DNA of 7,134 nt, taken from contig PATE01000002.1 in the NCBI GenBank assembly GCA_002712305.1, forward strand, positions 1 to 7,134, given 5' to 3'. The notes beneath the pieces are model-generated. The model was given only the letters and a program-made list of their open reading frames with translations. It had not been told where the DNA came from and did not search any database. Position 1 is the first letter of the stretch. Every line of letters begins with the position of its first letter. Position numbers and translations under genes: made by a program. This DNA comes from Gemmatimonadota bacterium. GTDB taxonomy: Bacteria > Latescibacterota > UBA2968 > UBA8231. Positions 1 through 7,134 of this stretch are shown in pieces.

Positions 1-330
1 TGGATCAGGGCCGAGATGGTCTGCCGGCGGCTCGGGGTGTGCCTGTTGGTTGATGACCAGGGGAACGACGGGGAAGTTGTCGGACGTACGGGTTTCACCT
101 CCCGGGCAATCCCAGACCACATCGTCGGTGCCATCACGATTGCCATCGTATCGTGCGTAGACGACGCGATAAGAAAAACTGATTGGTCTCGCTGTTTCTG
201 ATGGTGCATCGGCTCGCCGGATGTGCAGTGCCAGGATCTCCTCGAGATCCAGTTCCGTCAGATCCGTCGGTGGGCTCTGCCCCGATGAGGGGATCACCAT
301 CGCCACCAGGAGGACGCCACACCACACCAC
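1..330 (-). CDS. N-terminal part of a putative exported outer-membrane protein (runs off left edge)
   Basis: This minus-strand frame is open from well upstream through base 1, so the C-terminus is missing. From the in-frame GTG at 330 it begins MVWCGVLLVAMVIPSSGQS, a hydrophobic core followed by a small/polar stretch that looks like a signal peptide. The mature start carries TDLTELDLEEILALHI, which resembles the acidic LTELxLEEL segment seen near the N-terminus of TonB-dependent receptors and related outer-membrane proteins. It continues with ISFSYRVVYARYDGNRDGT, an alternating pattern typical of a first beta-barrel strand, then NFPVVPLVINQQAH. The start is uncertain. GTG 330 or 327 lacks a basic n-region. 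A CTG at 342 would give a better one (LNRNVVWCG) behind an AGGGA at 359-355. An ATG at 423 would add an odd 31-residue extension, and the ATG at 300 would delete the signal peptide. A real gene in this frame is fairly likely; the family is unproven. Confidence 0.6.
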   Translation of the reverse strand, partial: MVWCGVLLVAMVIPSSGQSPPTDLTELDLEEILALHIRRADAPSETARPISFSYRVVYARYDGNRDGTDDVVWDCPGGETRTSDNFPVVPLVINQQAHPEPPADHLGPDP

Positions 331-545
331 ATTGCGGTTCAGTATAAATACTCGTCCCTGCTTGTAGATCGGAGGGCAAGGAGAAGGCACCAGATATCCA
401 AAAAAGTATAAGAATCCCCACATCCCAACGCCTACAGCGACGGCTTGGTCGTCGCCTGAGATTGCGCCCTGTGTTCCGGGTTCTTCGGGTTGTGTAGATT
501 GAGGGCCGGCAAACGAGCTGCCGACAACGAGCAAGAGAGGACCCG
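331..545. promoter_or_regulatory. Divergent intergenic region, presumed promoters of the flanking genes
   Basis: This stretch separates the minus-strand exported-protein gene from the plus-strand aldehyde dehydrogenase operon. It holds a locally AT-rich segment (about 340-415) in otherwise GC-rich DNA. Within it are AGTATAA at 341-347 and again at 405-411. The first copy is part of the inverted repeat AGTAT-AA-ATACT (341-352), which lies at the presumed 5' end of the minus-strand gene. TATAAA (343-348) and TATAAG (407-412) resemble plus-strand -10 elements, and TATACT is the minus-strand equivalent of the first site. I found no good -35 match at normal spacing for any of them, so promoter positions are inference. 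No protein in this interval is convincing. Confidence 0.4.
535..540 (+). promoter_or_regulatory. Ribosome binding site of the aldehyde dehydrogenase gene
   Basis: GAGAGG ends five bases before the ATG at 546. It favours that start over the internal ATG at 561, which has no comparable purine run at the right distance. Confidence 0.6.
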
Positions 546-1934
546 ATGCCGGGCGACACCATGGATGTGTGCAACCCCTATCACCTGGGCGTAATCGGTG
601 AGGTTCCCCTCAGCGACTGGGCAGTGGCCGATGCCTGGCTGAGCAGAGCTCGGGCATTGGCCGATGATCGGCGGGCCTGGTTACCCGCCCACGAGCGGTT
701 GGCGATTCTCGAGCGAGCGCAGGCGCTGATGCGGGGGCGCTTCGACGAACTGGCCCATCAGATCGCAGATGAGGGGGGAAAACCCCTCATGGATGCCCGG
801 GTCGAGGTAGATCGAGCGATCGACGGAGTTGGGCTATGTGCTCGCGAATTGCAGCACCTCGGTGGTGGAGAGGTGCCCATGGATCTGACGGCGGCCGGTG
901 CCGGTCGCATGGCCTTTACCCAGCGAGAGCCGATCGGGCCGGTCGTGGCCGTATCGGCCTTCAATCACCCTCTGAATCTGATCGTGCACCAGGTGGCACC
1001 GGCGGTGGCCGTCGGTTGCCCCGTGATCGTCAAACCCGCCGACGATACACCGCTGTCGGCACGCAGTTTCGTCGATATTCTGACCGAGGCGGGCCTGCCC
1101 GATGGGTGGTGTGCCTTTATCGCCTGCGACATTCCCACGGCAGAGAAGCTGGTCACTGATCCGCGTGTGGCCTTTCTGAGTTTTATCGGCTCGGCAAAGG
1201 TGGGCTGGATGCTGCGTTCGAAGCTGGCACCGGGTGTCCGCTGTGCCCTCGAGCATGGCGGAGCGGCGCCGGTCATCGTCGATGAAACAGCAGATGTGGA
1301 TACCATGGTCCCGCTGTTGGCCAAGGGCGGACTGTATCACGCAGGTCAGGTGTGCGTGTCGGTGCAGCGGGTTTTCGCACCCACGGCACAGGCACAACAG
1401 CTGGCCGAGGCCCTGGCCGTGGTGGCAGATGGCTTGGTCGTGGGTGACGCTGTGGAGGAGAGGACCGAGGTGGGGCCGCTGATTCGCCCGCGAGAGGTCG
1501 ATCGAGTGGAGGAGTGGTTGACGGAGGCCGTCGATGGGAAAGGGCAGGTTGTGACCGGCAATTGCCGTCTCGGGGAGACGAGTTTCGCACCGACCATCGT
1601 GCTGAATCCGCCCCCAGACTGCCGTCTGTCGACGATGGAGATCTTCGGGCCGGCGATCGCCGTCTACGGGTACGACGACATGGAGGCAGCCATCGGAAAG
1701 GCCAACAGTCTGCCCTTTGCCTTCCAGGCCTCGTGTTTCACCCAGCGCCTCGATGTGGCCATGCACTGTATCCATGCCCTGGACGCGTCGGCGGTGATGG
1801 TCAATGACCACACGGCGTTTCGCGTCGATTGGATGCCCTTCGCCGGGCGCAAACAGTCCGGTTACGGCGTCGGTGGCATTGGCTACACCATGCACGATAT
1901 GACACAAGAGAAGATGGCCGTCATCCGGCTGTAA
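546..1934 (+). CDS. NAD(P)-dependent aldehyde dehydrogenase (lactaldehyde / phosphonoacetaldehyde dehydrogenase-like)
   Basis: A 462-residue cytosolic enzyme that would oxidise an aldehyde to its carboxylate with NAD(P)+. The ALDH motifs appear in order: SAFNHPLNL with the oxyanion-hole Asn140, KPADDTPLSA with the cofactor-binding Lys163, FIGSAKVG (213-220) of the Rossmann fold, the general base Glu236 in LEHGG, the nucleophile Cys270 in HAGQVCVSVQRV, and EIFGP (365-369). The C-terminal DWMPFAGRKQSGYGVGG and the HPLNLIVHQVAPAVAVGCPVIVKPA block resemble the lactaldehyde/phosphonoacetaldehyde dehydrogenase branch. Length is normal for the superfamily. One oddity is LEHGG in place of the usual LELGG; the catalytic Glu is intact. 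The gene leads an operon, with the YhcH-like gene 18 bases downstream. The family call is secure. The substrate is inference; lactaldehyde or another short aldehyde from sugar breakdown suits the context. Confidence 0.93.
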   Translation: MPGDTMDVCNPYHLGVIGEVPLSDWAVADAWLSRARALADDRRAWLPAHERLAILERAQALMRGRFDELAHQIADEGGKPLMDARVEVDRAIDGVGLCARELQHLGGGEVPMDLTAAGAGRMAFTQREPIGPVVAVSAFNHPLNLIVHQVAPAVAVGCPVIVKPADDTPLSARSFVDILTEAGLPDGWCAFIACDIPTAEKLVTDPRVAFLSFIGSAKVGWMLRSKLAPGVRCALEHGGAAPVIVDETADVDTMVPLLAKGGLYHAGQVCVSVQRVFAPTAQAQQLAEALAVVADGLVVGDAVEERTEVGPLIRPREVDRVEEWLTEAVDGKGQVVTGNCRLGETSFAPTIVLNPPPDCRLSTMEIFGPAIAVYGYDDMEAAIGKANSLPFAFQASCFTQRLDVAMHCIHALDASAVMVNDHTAFRVDWMPFAGRKQSGYGVGGIGYTMHDMTQEKMAVIRL

Positions 1935-1952
1935 TCACGAAAGAGAACGGGA

Positions 1953-2399
1953 ATGATCCTCGACGAACTGACCCACGCAGGGCTTTATCACGGCATCGGT
2001 CCGGGCTTTGCGCAGGCCCTGGAATACCTGGCGGAAACAGATCTGGCGTCGATGGCGCCCGAACGCTACGACCTGGACGGCGACAATCTGTTCGTCATGG
2101 TGCAGGAGTATGAAACAAAACCCAAGAGTGAAGGCTTTTGGGAGGCCCATCGAGCCTATGCGGACATCCAGTATGTCGTTCACGGCGACGAGCATATGGG
2201 ATATGCCCCCACCAGTTCGCTGAAGGCCGGCGCCTACGAGGCCGACCGGGATTTTCTCCCCCTGGATGGAGACGGTCTGTTTGTGCCGATGACGACGGGG
2301 CAATTCATCATCCTGTGGCCGCAAGATGCACATATGCCGCAAATGGCAGTTGAAGCGCCTGCACAGGTGAAGAAAGCGGTCTTCAAGGTGAAGCTCTAG
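1953..2399 (+). CDS. YhcH/YjgK/YiaL family protein (NanQ-like sugar anomerase)
   Basis: A 148-residue cytosolic cupin-like protein, close to the roughly 150 residues usual for the family. The hallmark central block EAHRAYADIQYVVHGDE (64-80) carries the conserved His66, Asp71 and Gln73. The second hallmark, WPQDAHMPQM (122-131), supplies His127, and the C-terminal VKKAVFKVKL matches the family's closing basic strand. E. coli YhcH (NanQ) of the sialic acid operon is an anomerase for sialic acids. Relatives occur in varied sugar operons, so the substrate here is open. The ATG at 1953 is preceded by AAGAG (1941-1945) with a 7-base spacer. The gene follows the aldehyde dehydrogenase by 18 bases, and its TAG stop shares one base with the GTG start of the next gene. 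I see no missing hallmark residue. Confidence 0.88.
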   Translation: MILDELTHAGLYHGIGPGFAQALEYLAETDLASMAPERYDLDGDNLFVMVQEYETKPKSEGFWEAHRAYADIQYVVHGDEHMGYAPTSSLKAGAYEADRDFLPLDGDGLFVPMTTGQFIILWPQDAHMPQMAVEAPAQVKKAVFKVKL

Positions 2400-2848
2400 T
2401 GTTCCGAGGGATCTTCATCGCAGTTCTGGCGTTTGGGCTTCTGGGTTGTGGCGACGATGGGGTCTCGATTCGAGACGACAAGCTGTCGACAAAGCAGCAC
2501 GACGCACCCCGTACGTTCTGGGGAACGTCGCCGATTACGGCCGAGGTGCGCTGGCAGATGAAGGATTTCGTAGAGGCGGAGGAGGGGATCCGTGTCGCAC
2601 TCGACTACGACACCATCTTCATCAATCCGAGCGATACCGTCTATACGATTTCTGTCAGCCGGATCACCTTCGAAGATCGATCGATGACACAGCTGGCCGC
2701 CTACGAGCCGGAAGAAGGCATCGTCGCCGGCGGTGCAGTACAGTTCACGTCGGAGGCACAGATCGATGTGCCGTCGATCCTCGATGCCAATCGCATTCGC
2801 AATCTCGTCATCTGGGCAACCTTCCGTATGGGAACTGCTGATGGCTAA
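2399..2848 (+). CDS. Small lipoprotein of unknown function
   Basis: A 149-residue protein starting at GTG 2399, which shares the G of the preceding TAG stop (TAGTG), a coupling arrangement that supports this start. The N-terminus MFRGIFIAVLAFGLLGC is a lipoprotein signal peptide: Arg3, a hydrophobic core, and lipobox L14-L15-G16-C17. Gly at +2 gives no inner-membrane retention signal by the E. coli rule, so outer-membrane anchoring is plausible. The mature part looks beta-rich, with alternating stretches such as ITAEVRWQM, IRVALDYDTIFI, TVYTISVSRITFED and LVIWATFRM. An Ig-like or small beta-sandwich fold is possible, but I recognise no family. The last eight bases (ATGGCTAA) overlap the sulfatase start, so it is embedded in the operon. 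It may be a surface factor for the same substrate; this is inference. Confidence 0.75.
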   Translation: MFRGIFIAVLAFGLLGCGDDGVSIRDDKLSTKQHDAPRTFWGTSPITAEVRWQMKDFVEAEEGIRVALDYDTIFINPSDTVYTISVSRITFEDRSMTQLAAYEPEEGIVAGGAVQFTSEAQIDVPSILDANRIRNLVIWATFRMGTADG

Positions 2849-4190
2849 GCAACCGAATGTGATCCTGGTCTTTGGCGATCAGTGGCGAGCACAAGCGACC
2901 GGGTACGGCGGAGATCCGAATGTGTACACGCCCCACCTGGATCGGCTCGCATCACAGAGCGTCAACATGACCCATGCCGTTTCGGGGTGCCCCGTCTGTT
3001 CGCCCGCTCGCGCTTGCCTGCTCACCGGCCAGTATCCTCTGACCCATGGTGTCTTCGTCAACGACGTTCCTTTGAGTGATCGAGCCGTCAGTCTGGCACA
3101 AGCCTTCAGCAACGGGGGCTACGAGACGGCCTATATCGGAAAGTGGCACGTGGACGGCCAGGGCCGTTCGAACTACATCCCGCCAGAGCGCCGTCAGGGG
3201 TTTAACGAGTGGCAGGTGCTGGAATGCACCCACGACTACAACGAGTCCTTCTACTATGCAGGTGATTCACCTGAGAAACTGACGTGGGAGGGTTACGACG
3301 CATTCTCGCAGACAAAGGCGGCGCAGCAATATGTACGGTCCCGACGCGACAAGACGTCCCCCTTTCTGATGGTGCTGTCCTGGGGACCGCCTCACAACCC
3401 GTATCACACAGCCCCCGACAAGTATCGCGCTCGTTATGAGGCCGAGCAGGTCGAGCTTCGGGGGAATGTCCCCGACAGCGAGGCACAGAACGCGCGAGAG
3501 CAACTGGCGGGATACTACGCCCACTGCACGGCGTTGGACGACTGCGTGGGAGATCTGCTGCAGACGCTTGATGAGGAAGGGATCGCACATGACACGGTTT
3601 TCTTGTTCTTCTCCGACCACGGCGACATGGTCGGGTCGCGGGGGGTCTACAACAAGCAGCGCCCATGGGACGAGTCGATTCGTGTGCCTTTCCTGCTGCG
3701 GTATCCGGCTCTGTTTGGCGACGAGGGGCGACAACTCGATGGACGGATCGACATTCCCGACATCATGCCCACTCTACTTGGGCTGTGTGGTCAGACGATC
3801 CCGGACACGGTGGAGGGACTGGATTTCTCAGGTTATCTGAAGGGTGGAGACGATCCGTCGGATGGTGCGGCCCTGCTGCAGTGTCCTCATCCCTTCGGGC
3901 AGTGGTGGGTCGGCGACGGTGGCAGATCCTACCGCGGCCTGCGCACACGTCAGCACACCTACGTGCGTGCCCTGGAAGGTCCGTGGCTGCTCTACGACAA
4001 CGACGCCGATCCCTATCAGCTGACGAATCTTGTCGGCGGCGCGGGCCACGAGGCGTTGCTGAAGGACATGGACGAGCGGCTGACGGCGAGACTCGCAGCA
4101 CGAGAGGACCAGTTCCTGCCGTCGGGCACGTATCTGTCGAAGTGGGGGTACGAAGTGAACGCTCGAGGGACCGTGAACTACATGAACTAG
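2841..4190 (+). CDS. Formylglycine-dependent sulfatase (arylsulfatase family)
   Basis: A 449-residue type I sulfatase that would hydrolyse a sulfate ester. PNVILVFGDQWR (5-16) is the N-terminal metal-binding strand, with Asp13 followed by Gln14. CPVCSPARACLLTG (50-63) contains the C-x-P-x-R signature with Cys53 as the predicted formylglycine residue and Arg57. GKWHV (100-104) gives Lys101 and His103, PPHNPY (183-188) gives His185, FFSDHGDMVG (256-265) gives metal ligands Asp259 and His260, and YNKQRPWDESIRVPF gives Lys272. All expected active-site positions are filled. Activation needs a formylglycine-generating enzyme or anSME, neither in this window. The ATG at 2841 overlaps the lipoprotein gene by 8 bases and has GGGA eight bases upstream. 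An in-frame ATG at 2733 would add a basic low-complexity tail antiparallel to nothing conserved, so I reject it. No signal peptide is visible, suggesting a cytosolic enzyme acting on imported sulfated oligosaccharide or monosaccharide. Substrate is unknown. Confidence 0.94.
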   Translation: MAKQPNVILVFGDQWRAQATGYGGDPNVYTPHLDRLASQSVNMTHAVSGCPVCSPARACLLTGQYPLTHGVFVNDVPLSDRAVSLAQAFSNGGYETAYIGKWHVDGQGRSNYIPPERRQGFNEWQVLECTHDYNESFYYAGDSPEKLTWEGYDAFSQTKAAQQYVRSRRDKTSPFLMVLSWGPPHNPYHTAPDKYRARYEAEQVELRGNVPDSEAQNAREQLAGYYAHCTALDDCVGDLLQTLDEEGIAHDTVFLFFSDHGDMVGSRGVYNKQRPWDESIRVPFLLRYPALFGDEGRQLDGRIDIPDIMPTLLGLCGQTIPDTVEGLDFSGYLKGGDDPSDGAALLQCPHPFGQWWVGDGGRSYRGLRTRQHTYVRALEGPWLLYDNDADPYQLTNLVGGAGHEALLKDMDERLTARLAAREDQFLPSGTYLSKWGYEVNARGTVNYMN

Positions 4191-4230
4191 GTCGGCACGA
4201 CTCCCGGATCTGGCGCCCAGGGCTTGAAAG
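4191..4230. other. Convergent intergenic gap
   Basis: Forty bases separate the stops of the sulfatase gene and the convergent dehydrogenase gene. The only structure I see is a 4-bp hairpin CTGG-CGC-CCAG (4210-4220) without a T-run on either strand, too weak to call a terminator. Confidence 0.5.
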
Positions 4231-5364
4231 TCAGTCAGCCGGAGACAGGCGCACGATCCGCCCCGGCTCCTCGAGGGCGACGTAGATCAACCCGTCCGGC
4301 CCGGTTTCCACATCGCGGAAACGAGAACCCGGCTCGAAGATGATCTCCTGGTGGATGACACGCCCCTGTTCGATGTGGACCCGCCGCAGTTGCTGGAAGG
4401 CCAGCGCCGTCACCAGCAGGTGATTCTTCCACTTTGGAAATTGATCCCCATCGTAGAAATCGATCCCGCAGGGCGCGATGGACGGATTCCAGAACAGGAT
4501 CGGCTGTTCCATGCCGTCGGCGGTCATCGCTTCGGTAATCGGTGTGCCGTTGTAGTTGATCCCATACGTGATGGCAGGCCAACCGTAGTTGACCCCCTTC
4601 TGAATCCGATTGAGTTCGTCACCCCCGCGCGGGCCGTGTTCGGTGGTGTAGATCTCACCCGTGGCGGGGTGCACGGCCATACCCTGCGGATTGCGATGGC
4701 CATACGACCAGATTGACGTGATGGCTCCGGGCTGCTCGGCGAAGGGATTGTCTGCCGGGATACGACCATCGTCATGGAGGCGATGCACCTTGCCATTTGG
4801 CGTCTCCATAGATTGCGCGAGGGGTCGCTGACCCCGATCTCCAATCGTGAAGTAGAGAAACCCATCTGCGTCGAAGACGATGCGGGAACCGAAGTGGTGA
4901 CCGCGACGCGAATAGAACTCGGCATCCACCTCGTATACCCGTTCTACGTCGGTCAGGGCCAGGTCGGTGAGGCGAGCACGATCGATCACGGTGTAGCCGA
5001 TGGTGTCGTCGCCATCTCCAGCCCCTGGCTCTGAGTAGGAGAGATAGACGAGTTGGTTGTTGGCGAAGTCCGGGTGCAGGACGATGTCCATGAGGCCACC
5101 CTGGCCTCGAGCACGAACCGGCGGGACACCGTCGATCGGCTCGGAGACGCTGCCATCGGGGCTTACAATACGGATCGTCCCCTGCCGCTCGGTCACCAAC
5201 AGGCGTCCGTCTGGCAGGAATTCCAACGCCCAGGGGATCTCGAACCCTTCGGCGTAGGTCTCGGCGACGATGTCATAACGGATGGTGGGGATCGACGCGG
5301 CGTGGGTGGCCTGCTGAAGCAGGGCCACGGCGACGATCGCAGGACAGAGCAGGCGTCTCAGCAT
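4231..5364 (-). CDS. Exported PQQ-dependent aldose sugar dehydrogenase (Glucose/Sorbosone dehydrogenase family)
   Basis: A 377-residue protein with signal peptide MLRRLLCPAIVAVALLQQATHA and probable cleavage near residue 22 or 23, so it is periplasmic. The body matches the soluble six-bladed propeller family that includes E. coli YliI/Asd and soluble glucose dehydrogenase. Markers in order are EIPWALEFLPDGRLLVTER (42-60), GQGGLMDIVLHPDF (88-101), HHFGSRIVFDADGFLY (156-171) with the presumed catalytic His157, YFTIGDRG, SYGHRNPQGMAVHP (220-233), EHGPRGGDELNRI (242-254) and NYGWP (259-263) of the calcium/PQQ-binding region, and RDVETGPDGLIYV near the C-terminus. Such enzymes oxidise an aldose at C1 to a lactone. 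Length is ordinary and no key motif is missing. No PQQ biosynthesis gene is in the window. The start at 5364 is the only one that keeps the full signal peptide; its ribosome binding site is weak. The exact sugar is unknown. Confidence 0.92.
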   Translation of the reverse strand: MLRRLLCPAIVAVALLQQATHAASIPTIRYDIVAETYAEGFEIPWALEFLPDGRLLVTERQGTIRIVSPDGSVSEPIDGVPPVRARGQGGLMDIVLHPDFANNQLVYLSYSEPGAGDGDDTIGYTVIDRARLTDLALTDVERVYEVDAEFYSRRGHHFGSRIVFDADGFLYFTIGDRGQRPLAQSMETPNGKVHRLHDDGRIPADNPFAEQPGAITSIWSYGHRNPQGMAVHPATGEIYTTEHGPRGGDELNRIQKGVNYGWPAITYGINYNGTPITEAMTADGMEQPILFWNPSIAPCGIDFYDGDQFPKWKNHLLVTALAFQQLRRVHIEQGRVIHQEIIFEPGSRFRDVETGPDGLIYVALEEPGRIVRLSPAD

Positions 5365-5519
5365 GGGGATCTATCTGTGTGTCTTCCGGGTGAAGGTTGA
5401 CGTAAACCTGATGGTTTCGCCGTCAGGGTCAACCCGGGGCTGCGCGCCGCCGCTGAAGATCCTACCATTGGCCCCTCACGATCTACGCGTTTTAGCCACG
5501 AGTTATCCGGAGCCCGAAC
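5365..5519. promoter_or_regulatory. Divergent intergenic region with nested inverted repeats
   Basis: This region lies between the starts of the minus-strand dehydrogenase and the plus-strand LamG/propeller gene. It contains AAACC-TGAT-GGTTT (5404-5417), flanked by TGACG (5398-5402) and CGTCA (5421-5425), and a third overlapping pair GGTTGAC (5395-5401) / GTCAACC (5428-5434). Arms and loops nest around one centre, so it could be a regulator site or a 5'-leader hairpin serving either gene. I found no confident -35/-10 pair. An in-frame TAG at 5493-5495 closes the reading frame upstream of the plus-strand gene. Confidence 0.4.
5509..5512 (+). promoter_or_regulatory. Ribosome binding site of the LamG/propeller gene
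   Basis: GGAG with a 7-base spacer to the ATG at 5520. With the in-frame stop at 5493-5495 it fixes the start. Confidence 0.65.
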
Positions 5520-7134
5520 ATGTCGTCGAAGCCGACCCCACCTCCAACTGTAGATCTGACACCGATCAAAGCGGGTTCGGCACTCACCGTCGAAGCGCGT
5601 ATCACGGCTCACGAAGCGGGTGTCGAGGCGATGCAGCCGATCGTCTCCCAGTGGCAGCCGCTGGCGACACCTCGTTTTAACGCATACGACGCGACGTTGA
5701 CGGATGGCTTGACCTGCTCGGGGTACTACGGCGCCGTATTCGACGGGCGCCACGTCTACGGCTGCCCGATCCGTTCGCATCGAGAACGAGACACGGTCCA
5801 CGGGCACGTGCTGCGCTGTGACACGCACGGAGACTTCCACGATCCTGCTTCGTGGGAAGCGTATGATGCGGGGGGTACGGATGAGCTGAATACAGTCTGT
5901 TACTACGGCGCAGCCTTCGATGGGCGGCATGTGATTTTCGCGCCGCGAGACGACAGTCATGGCTACCACAGTCGTGTGCTTCGTTATGACACAACGGGGC
6001 CTTTCAAAGACGCCGACGCGTGGTCGGCCTTCGATGCAGACCTGCCGCACTCGGCTCAGGGCGCGGCCTTCGATGGACAACACGTCTACTTCTGCCCTGG
6101 CTATGAGAGTATTCCCGCCGAGCCAATGACGGAGGGGCTGCTCAGTGGCAAGGTGTTGCGGATGGACACGGGCGCGGACTTCAAGGACGCCGCATCCTAT
6201 CGCGTCTTCGACACCACCGTGCTGGGATCAGATGCGGTTTGCTTCGACGGGGGCGCCTTTGATGGTCGCTTCGTCTATTTCGTGCCTCTCATCAAAGGCG
6301 TCGTCGTGCGGCACGATACGCAGGGGGACTTTGACGATGCGAACAGCTGGGAAGCCTTCGACGCCAAACCCGTAGGACTAGGCATGAATGTGGGGGCTGT
6401 CTTCGACGGCCACTGGTTGTATTTCTGCGCCTACGGTCATCCGTCGATGGTGCGCTACGACACGCGCAAGCCCTTCGCCGACGCCAGCAGCTGGGAACAG
6501 TACGACGCGGCCAACACGTCTGGCATCGACACGGGCGGGTTCGACGGTGGCTTCTTCGATGGGCGATATGTCACCTTCTGTCCCTGGACGCGCACCGCGC
6601 CTCCGGGTGGCTCGGGGTACCACTGCAACTATCTGCGTTTCGACACGACCCGCTCCTTCGACGACCCCAGTGCGTGGACGGGATACGATGCGAGTGCCAC
6701 GGACGGGCTCGTGTCTCTGGGCTACAATGCGGGTGCCTTCGATGGCGGATCCTTCTATGCGGCCCCTCTGTACGCAGAGGATGGGGAAGCCTTCCACGGG
6801 AGGATGATGCGTGTGGACACCCTCGGGGGGGATGGCGCCTTCAGTCTGCGTTTCTGCGATTACGGTCACAATGGTGGGCTTTGCGCAGCCGTGCCCGGGC
6901 CGAGTTTCCTCATCAACACCGATGGCGGTGTGCGAAGTGTGGCTGCCCATCAGCCGCTGTCGGCCGGTTCGCACCACCTGGTCGGTGTCTACGATGGGGC
7001 ATCTCTGCAGTTGTGGATCGATGGCAAGCTGGTCGCACAGCGTGAGGCGTCAGGCCAGCTGCTGGCGCCGGATATTCCCGTCACCTTTGGCGAACTCAGT
7101 GGCGGCGGAGCGCGCTTCAACGGTCAGATTGAGT
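5520..7134 (+). CDS. Large LamG-domain protein with an inserted seven-repeat beta-propeller (partial, runs off right edge)
   Basis: The first 538 residues are present and the frame is open to the end of the window. Residues 1-20 are a Pro-rich start without a signal peptide. Residues 21-46 (from ALTVEARITAHEAG through IVSQW) look like the first strands of a LamG jellyroll. Residues about 51-433 hold seven repeats centred on G-A-x-F-D-G-R-x-V-Y-F, with FDG at 74, 133, 184, 247, 295, 346 and 407. Each of the first six continues with VLRYDTxGxFxDxxSWxxYDA. Residues 439-538 resume LamG-like sequence: AFSLRF, then HQPLSAGSHHLVGVYDGASLQLWIDGKLVAQ, the classic W/H-H-x-x-G-x-Y-D-G-x-x-L-x-L-x-x-D-G pattern. 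LamG and propeller folds commonly bind or display carbohydrate; enzymatic activity is not evident. I know no characterised protein with this arrangement. The gene is divergent from the PQQ-type dehydrogenase gene. Domain calls are from pattern recognition; the fold of the repeats is inference. Confidence 0.85.
   Translation, partial: MSSKPTPPPTVDLTPIKAGSALTVEARITAHEAGVEAMQPIVSQWQPLATPRFNAYDATLTDGLTCSGYYGAVFDGRHVYGCPIRSHRERDTVHGHVLRCDTHGDFHDPASWEAYDAGGTDELNTVCYYGAAFDGRHVIFAPRDDSHGYHSRVLRYDTTGPFKDADAWSAFDADLPHSAQGAAFDGQHVYFCPGYESIPAEPMTEGLLSGKVLRMDTGADFKDAASYRVFDTTVLGSDAVCFDGGAFDGRFVYFVPLIKGVVVRHDTQGDFDDANSWEAFDAKPVGLGMNVGAVFDGHWLYFCAYGHPSMVRYDTRKPFADASSWEQYDAANTSGIDTGGFDGGFFDGRYVTFCPWTRTAPPGGSGYHCNYLRFDTTRSFDDPSAWTGYDASATDGLVSLGYNAGAFDGGSFYAAPLYAEDGEAFHGRMMRVDTLGGDGAFSLRFCDYGHNGGLCAAVPGPSFLINTDGGVRSVAAHQPLSAGSHHLVGVYDGASLQLWIDGKLVAQREASGQLLAPDIPVTFGELSGGGARFNGQIE
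5670..6818 (+). repeat. Seven tandem protein repeats encoding a probable beta-propeller
   Basis: The degenerate repeats run at spacings of 59, 51, 63, 48, 51 and 61 residues between FDG motifs. The DNA around each motif (ttcgaygg) is similar but has diverged at synonymous and variable sites, so this is an old protein repeat and not a recent DNA duplication. Repeats 1 to 6 each end in a D-x-x-S/A-W/Y-x-x-F/Y-D segment (106-117, 162-173, 221-231, 271-282, 319-330, 380-391). Repeat 7 lacks that segment. A matching one, FNAYDATLTDG, precedes repeat 1 (53-63). Confidence 0.8.

Follow-up and report, generated by a model that had tools for sequence, protein, structure and literature searches.

A seven-bladed propeller predicted to be nested within the LamG jellyroll of a bacterial protein

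The stretch of DNA analyzed here (hereafter the window) comprises 7,134 nucleotides and occupies positions 1-7134 of a contig of 12,621 bases from a draft genome of 4.77 Mb. Sequence profiles and the structure model of an ortholog lead us to conclude, with near certainty, that the last gene of the window encodes a LamG domain in which a complete seven-bladed beta-propeller is nested in a hairpin. That this architecture goes together with a role as a binding module is, in our opinion, very likely. In the arrangement we propose, the propeller would sit in the hairpin between the LamG strands QPIVSQ and FSLRF, the whole forming one compact protein. The two ends of the propeller would meet, which would have allowed its insertion while the jellyroll stayed closed, and the N-terminal LamG piece would complete the sandwich. 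Propeller and jellyroll would then constitute one rigid two-lobed binding module.

The gene and its split LamG domain

The open reading frame lies on the forward strand, as do all the features described below, and runs from an ATG at position 5520 to a stop codon at 7158-7160 on the contig. It is preceded by eight open-frame codons and stays open to the end of the window (5520-7134), where it accounts for 538 residues. Ambiguous bases are found at 7135, 7146 and 7149, directly after the window end and inside the reading frame. The stop comes early and the C-terminal helix of the orthologs is missing from the window gene, due either to an assembly error or to a real truncation; the last LamG strand of the orthologs likewise lies beyond the window or has been lost. 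On the other hand, a chimeric assembly could be ruled out, since orthologs with an identical layout and 79-85% identity occur in separate MAGs. Two paralogs that share this layout, with identities of 50% and 44%, are also encoded elsewhere in the window's genome.

The first-pass annotation had read the sequence preceding the repeats, up to IVSQW, as the opening strands of a LamG domain, and the sequence from FSLRF onward as its remainder. The N-terminal piece (residues 20-45, positions 5577-5654) contains the strands LTVEARITA and QPIVSQ, as placed from the ortholog model, and the C-terminal piece (residues 441-538, positions 6840-7134) extends from FSLRF to FNGQIE. With the intact protein, Pfam finds the C-terminal piece only (Laminin_G_3, PF13385, 35 bits, profile positions 55-135). 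When the two pieces were joined, the score rose to 44.1 bits and the match extended over positions 16-135, intact and joined forms both passing the curated cut-off of 27.6 bits. Scores for the three paralogs went in the same way from 35, 31.7 and 33.4 bits intact to 44.1, 41.4 and 44.5 bits joined, with matches starting at profile positions 16, 6 and 16. As a control, the C-terminal piece of the window protein scored 38.5 bits alone and 37.4-38.7 bits behind four shuffled N-terminal pieces. The match of the genuine N-terminal piece is thus not due to chance. The same held for a distant relative (L065), for which we obtained 88.0 bits with the C-terminal piece alone, 87.6-88.0 with shuffled pieces, 91 with the intact protein and 110.2 after joining, the joined pieces covering positions 1-150 of 151. 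Altogether, these data bear out both halves of the first-pass reading as well as its expectation of a single LamG match running across the junction of the two pieces. The window protein nevertheless differs from the Pfam domain that it matches by an interruption of about 389 residues and by a weak beginning, the very first LamG strand (profile positions 1-15) being degenerate or missing.

The region in between was analyzed on an AlphaFold2 model of L011, a full-length ortholog sharing 83% identity with the window protein, computed with a 49-row alignment and reaching a mean pLDDT of 92.5 and a pTM of 0.92. In this model, strands 26-34 and 43-48 belong to the LamG domain and strand 51-61 is already part of the propeller; seven a-b-c sets and the remaining outer strands follow up to residue 439, and LamG resumes at residue 445. 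All seven blades are therefore placed between two LamG strands, in agreement with the earlier claim that some 390 residues of seven-fold repeat occupy a LamG loop; in the window protein the region covers residues 47 to about 436 (5658 to about 6827), or about 389 residues. The strand order describes seven four-stranded blades, made of seven a-b-c sets and seven outer strands, the first of which is N-terminal. From the strand count, this first propeller strand (residues 47-57, positions 5658-5690) very probably completes blade 7 as its outer strand and closes the ring, so that the two ends of the propeller would meet. Transferred to the window, the model strands place blade 1, with its outer strand WEAYD, at 5724-5867, blade 2 at 5901-6035, blade 3 at 6048-6212, blade 4 at 6243-6362, blade 5 at 6387-6506, blade 6 at 6540-6689, and strands a-b-c of blade 7 at 6723-6824.

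A structural search returned virginiamycin B lyase (2z2o) as the best match for this region, aligned within model residues 53-445 with a Z score of 30.2 and 2.6 Å over 292 residues, which provides the seven-bladed propeller match anticipated for the middle of the protein. One would then wonder whether the protein, although nested, might work as a virginiamycin B lyase-type enzyme, using the central face of its propeller with the LamG domain as a substrate-holding lobe; the histidines at window residues 94, 150, 368 and 426, conserved at 90% or more, would fit such a function. We consider this quite unlikely. The sequence shares no more than 11-12% identity with the lyase, and the scores of YncE (Z 28.5) and WD40 proteins are nearly as high, so that the match is best understood as one to a common fold. 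More generally, the lyase and YncE propellers share the fold of the insert (Z 28-30) but differ from it by their repeat motif, with 11-15% identity, and by the fact that the insert has no Pfam model. The propeller region alone gave no Pfam match and the window protein no NCBIfam match; the inserted family has a model in neither collection. A profile search of the PDB revealed no sequence relatives of the propeller, its only results being weak matches on the LamG side and noise from eS21.

Because propellers filled the search with the whole model, the LamG fold was tested on the C-terminal piece only. Folded alone, this piece reached a pLDDT of 87 and matched the LamG domain of PAPP-A and the pentraxin domain of PTX3 with Z scores of 10.3-10.5 over 110-119 residues (rmsd 2.3-2.8). 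It aligned over its full length to residues 59-182 of the 200-residue PTX3 chain (Z 10.3) and to residues 70-196 of the PAPP-A chain (Z 10.4). These alignments thus begin about 50 or more residues into the chains and leave the first strands unfilled; the N-terminal piece is of the right size to fill this gap. In addition, strand 539-547 of the full model was no longer assigned, and the GHNGGL loop (residues 11-20 of the piece) had a pLDDT of 53, as compared with 91-95 in the full model. Judged from these predictions, the C-terminal piece alone is an incomplete jellyroll. We infer the pairing of N- and C-terminal strands in the sandwich from the secondary structure and from this folding of the isolated piece. 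Clostridial neurotoxins also appeared among the matches, a structural likeness only, with no bearing on function.

These results have to be weighed against a simpler reading, in which an N-terminal extension, a propeller and a self-complete C-terminal LamG-like domain follow each other in series. The Pfam report on the intact protein, limited to the C-terminal piece, and the ability of that piece to fold alone both speak for it. It fails, however, to account for the gain in score upon joining, which shuffled pieces do not reproduce, for the nearly complete profile covered by the joined pieces of L065, for jellyroll matches that start only at residue 59 or 70, or for a last strand that is unassigned in the absence of the N-terminal piece. 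Moreover, a true in-series form exists among the relatives (L075, see below). On the basis of the joining gain, the shuffle controls and the fold of the C-terminal piece, we rejected this reading, which we regard as highly improbable. Two independent domains in series, named at the outset as the observation that would speak against nesting, were not seen: the model is one well-packed body, its C-terminal piece is incomplete alone, and the position of the break is constant among relatives.

Relatives of the inserted propeller and a second family

A scan of genome contigs for relatives yielded 79 loci, and some of the nearest relatives listed for the window protein come from records named Candidatus Latescibacterota. 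Of the 61 C-terminal pieces counted, 59 have the LamG break at position 52 or 53 of the model. A tree of 83 propellers, 61 nested and 22 not nested, places 54 of the nested ones in one supported group and the other seven among the rest, and its supported branches force at least five changes between the two states, which could represent gains, losses or a mixture of the two. The propellers that are not nested have no LamG domain, with the exception of L075 (793-6765), where an intact LamG domain (profile 1-151) stands in series before the same propeller and offers a natural contrast to the nested form. The existence of propellers outside LamG indicates that the insert is an autonomous domain. 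Among these not-nested relatives (L062, L064, L066, L070-L087), several have apparent signal or lipoprotein leaders, and some have nearly identical blades. Standalone propellers also gave weak sialic-acid-binding and Kelch matches, which lay below the cut-off and were not used.

According to the record names, which can be wrong for MAGs, nested members are found in Latescibacterota, Gemmatimonadota, Planctomycetota, Verrucomicrobia, Lentisphaeria, Kiritimatiellae and Acidobacteriota (Bryobacterales), and further in Chloroflexi, Poribacteria, Nitrospirae, Bdellovibrionaceae, Moraniibacteriota and one Aenigmatarchaeota bin. Of 64 genomes from the window's phylum, 36 give a match at E 0.001, some of them through LamG only. 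The genome of a magnetotactic Nitrospirota carries two adjacent tandem genes (L069, 2512-5400 and 5404-7881), both of the nested LamG-propeller type.

In L119 (305-1972), L131 (1-1755) and L122 (112-1731), the sequence suggests that a later LamG loop is occupied by another propeller, Kelch-like and about 320-345 residues long, after ...RHLHFGID.G and before ...V.YD..L..GWRH. In L122, the N-terminal piece alone had no Pfam match, and the score went from 64.1 bits for the intact protein to 71.5 bits over positions 2-150 after joining. L119 and L131 are two copies from the window's own genome, in which five of eight LamG matches are nested when judged by sequence criteria for both families; many genomes of the phylum encode full-length relatives of this second family. 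A distant relationship between the two propeller families is possible, their comparison by hhalign giving a weak probability of 54%. With two families in two loops within the same lineage and genome, the first of them having changed its state of nesting five times or more on the propeller tree, we lean towards the idea that LamG is a recurrent chassis for propellers. If so, these two-lobed binding proteins with a nested domain would make up a class that is still undescribed.

Predicted role of the nested protein

Our attention was drawn to the loop CDYGHNGGLCAAVPGPSFLINTD (GHNGGL...PGPSF, positions 6855-6923), located directly after the strand by which the chain re-enters the jellyroll. It is the best conserved of the stretches compared (mean of 0.74 versus 0.53-0.63 elsewhere) and would be the likeliest candidate for a ligand or contact site. 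As for the ligand itself, we tentatively propose recognition of a glycan or of polysaccharide breakdown products as the most likely role. Three hints were taken into account, namely the LamG host fold, which is typical of glycan binders, the neighboring genes, and the domain fusions of relatives, several of which carry DUF2341, TIG, Ig or cadherin-like domains. Read by eye, the neighbors look like sugar-catabolism genes. Those at 546-5364 resemble an aldehyde dehydrogenase, a YhcH-type protein, a sulfatase and a sugar dehydrogenase, together with a small lipoprotein, and a Gfo/Idh gene was read among the neighbors as well. Among relatives, no conserved operon partner emerged, the surroundings being scattered genes of sugar and general metabolism with Gfo/Idh at the top of the tally (4 of 71). 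A near-identical flanking gene pair in L016-L020 was discarded as a partner, as it reflects close relatives.

LamG proteins are usually extracellular. An alternative role is that of a rigid intracellular scaffold, in which the nested propeller would make protein contacts and LamG would only anchor it. The window protein has no evident signal peptide by eye, nor do many related proteins, and its 11 cysteines are in keeping with the cytosol. However, inspection by eye suggests secretion for standalone relatives and for several nested ones (L047, L063, L062, L064 and L066), and some relatives are joined to extracellular adhesion domains, which makes the scaffold rather doubtful to us. Within the window's group, nested proteins with no evident signal peptide include the window protein (5520-5560), L010-L013, L041 and L048, some with an N-terminal DUF2341-like region.

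Comparison with known propeller and jellyroll proteins

A domain inserted in another is, as a rule, the smaller of the two. Here the guest is about three times the size of its host and occupies a tight hairpin without destroying the fold, and it does so in some sixty proteins of many phyla. Nature offers here a clean test of the ways in which closed-ring domains can be spliced into beta-sandwiches. As neither Pfam nor NCBIfam has a model for the propeller, and intact proteins show mainly the second half of LamG in searches, these proteins can easily be mistaken for simple C-terminal LamG proteins. Other combinations of propellers with a second domain are known. In prolyl oligopeptidase, a seven-bladed propeller lies between two parts of an alpha/beta hydrolase, and in the sialidase of Vibrio cholerae the nesting is reversed, a lectin domain being inserted in the propeller. 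The window protein gave no sialidase or BNR match in Pfam up to E 1. Prolyl oligopeptidase resembles it by the combination of a seven-bladed propeller with another domain, but the host is a hydrolase to which the propeller gates access (PMC11878206). Sialidases and trans-sialidases also unite a propeller and a lectin-like jellyroll in one protein, with the difference that the propeller is the catalytic core and the jellyroll stands in series with it (PMC8865650).

The closest parallel can be drawn with the nozzle protein gp12 of phage T7, in which the N-terminal 45 residues supply three strands of the platform jelly-roll and the C-terminal part supplies the others, with a seven-bladed propeller in between (PMC6702177). 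Compared by its published architecture, the gp12 platform is another jelly-roll; gp12 is also a virion protein whose propeller and platform are separated by a fibre dock (PMC6702177), whereas the window gene is chromosomal. Two open points have been described in the gp12 propeller and a circular permutation has been suggested (PMC6702177). The first-pass annotation knew of no characterized protein of this kind. That statement stands for a propeller inside a LamG domain, no description of which was found in a literature search that was thin on subscription journals, but not for jelly-rolls at large (PMC6702177). As far as architectures can be compared, gp12 is a real partial precedent that limits the novelty of the LamG nesting, which is thus not wholly without parallel. 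Finally, a library of viral structures returned mostly propeller-type matches; large viruses also contributed some LamG and DUF2341 proteins, which superimposed poorly.
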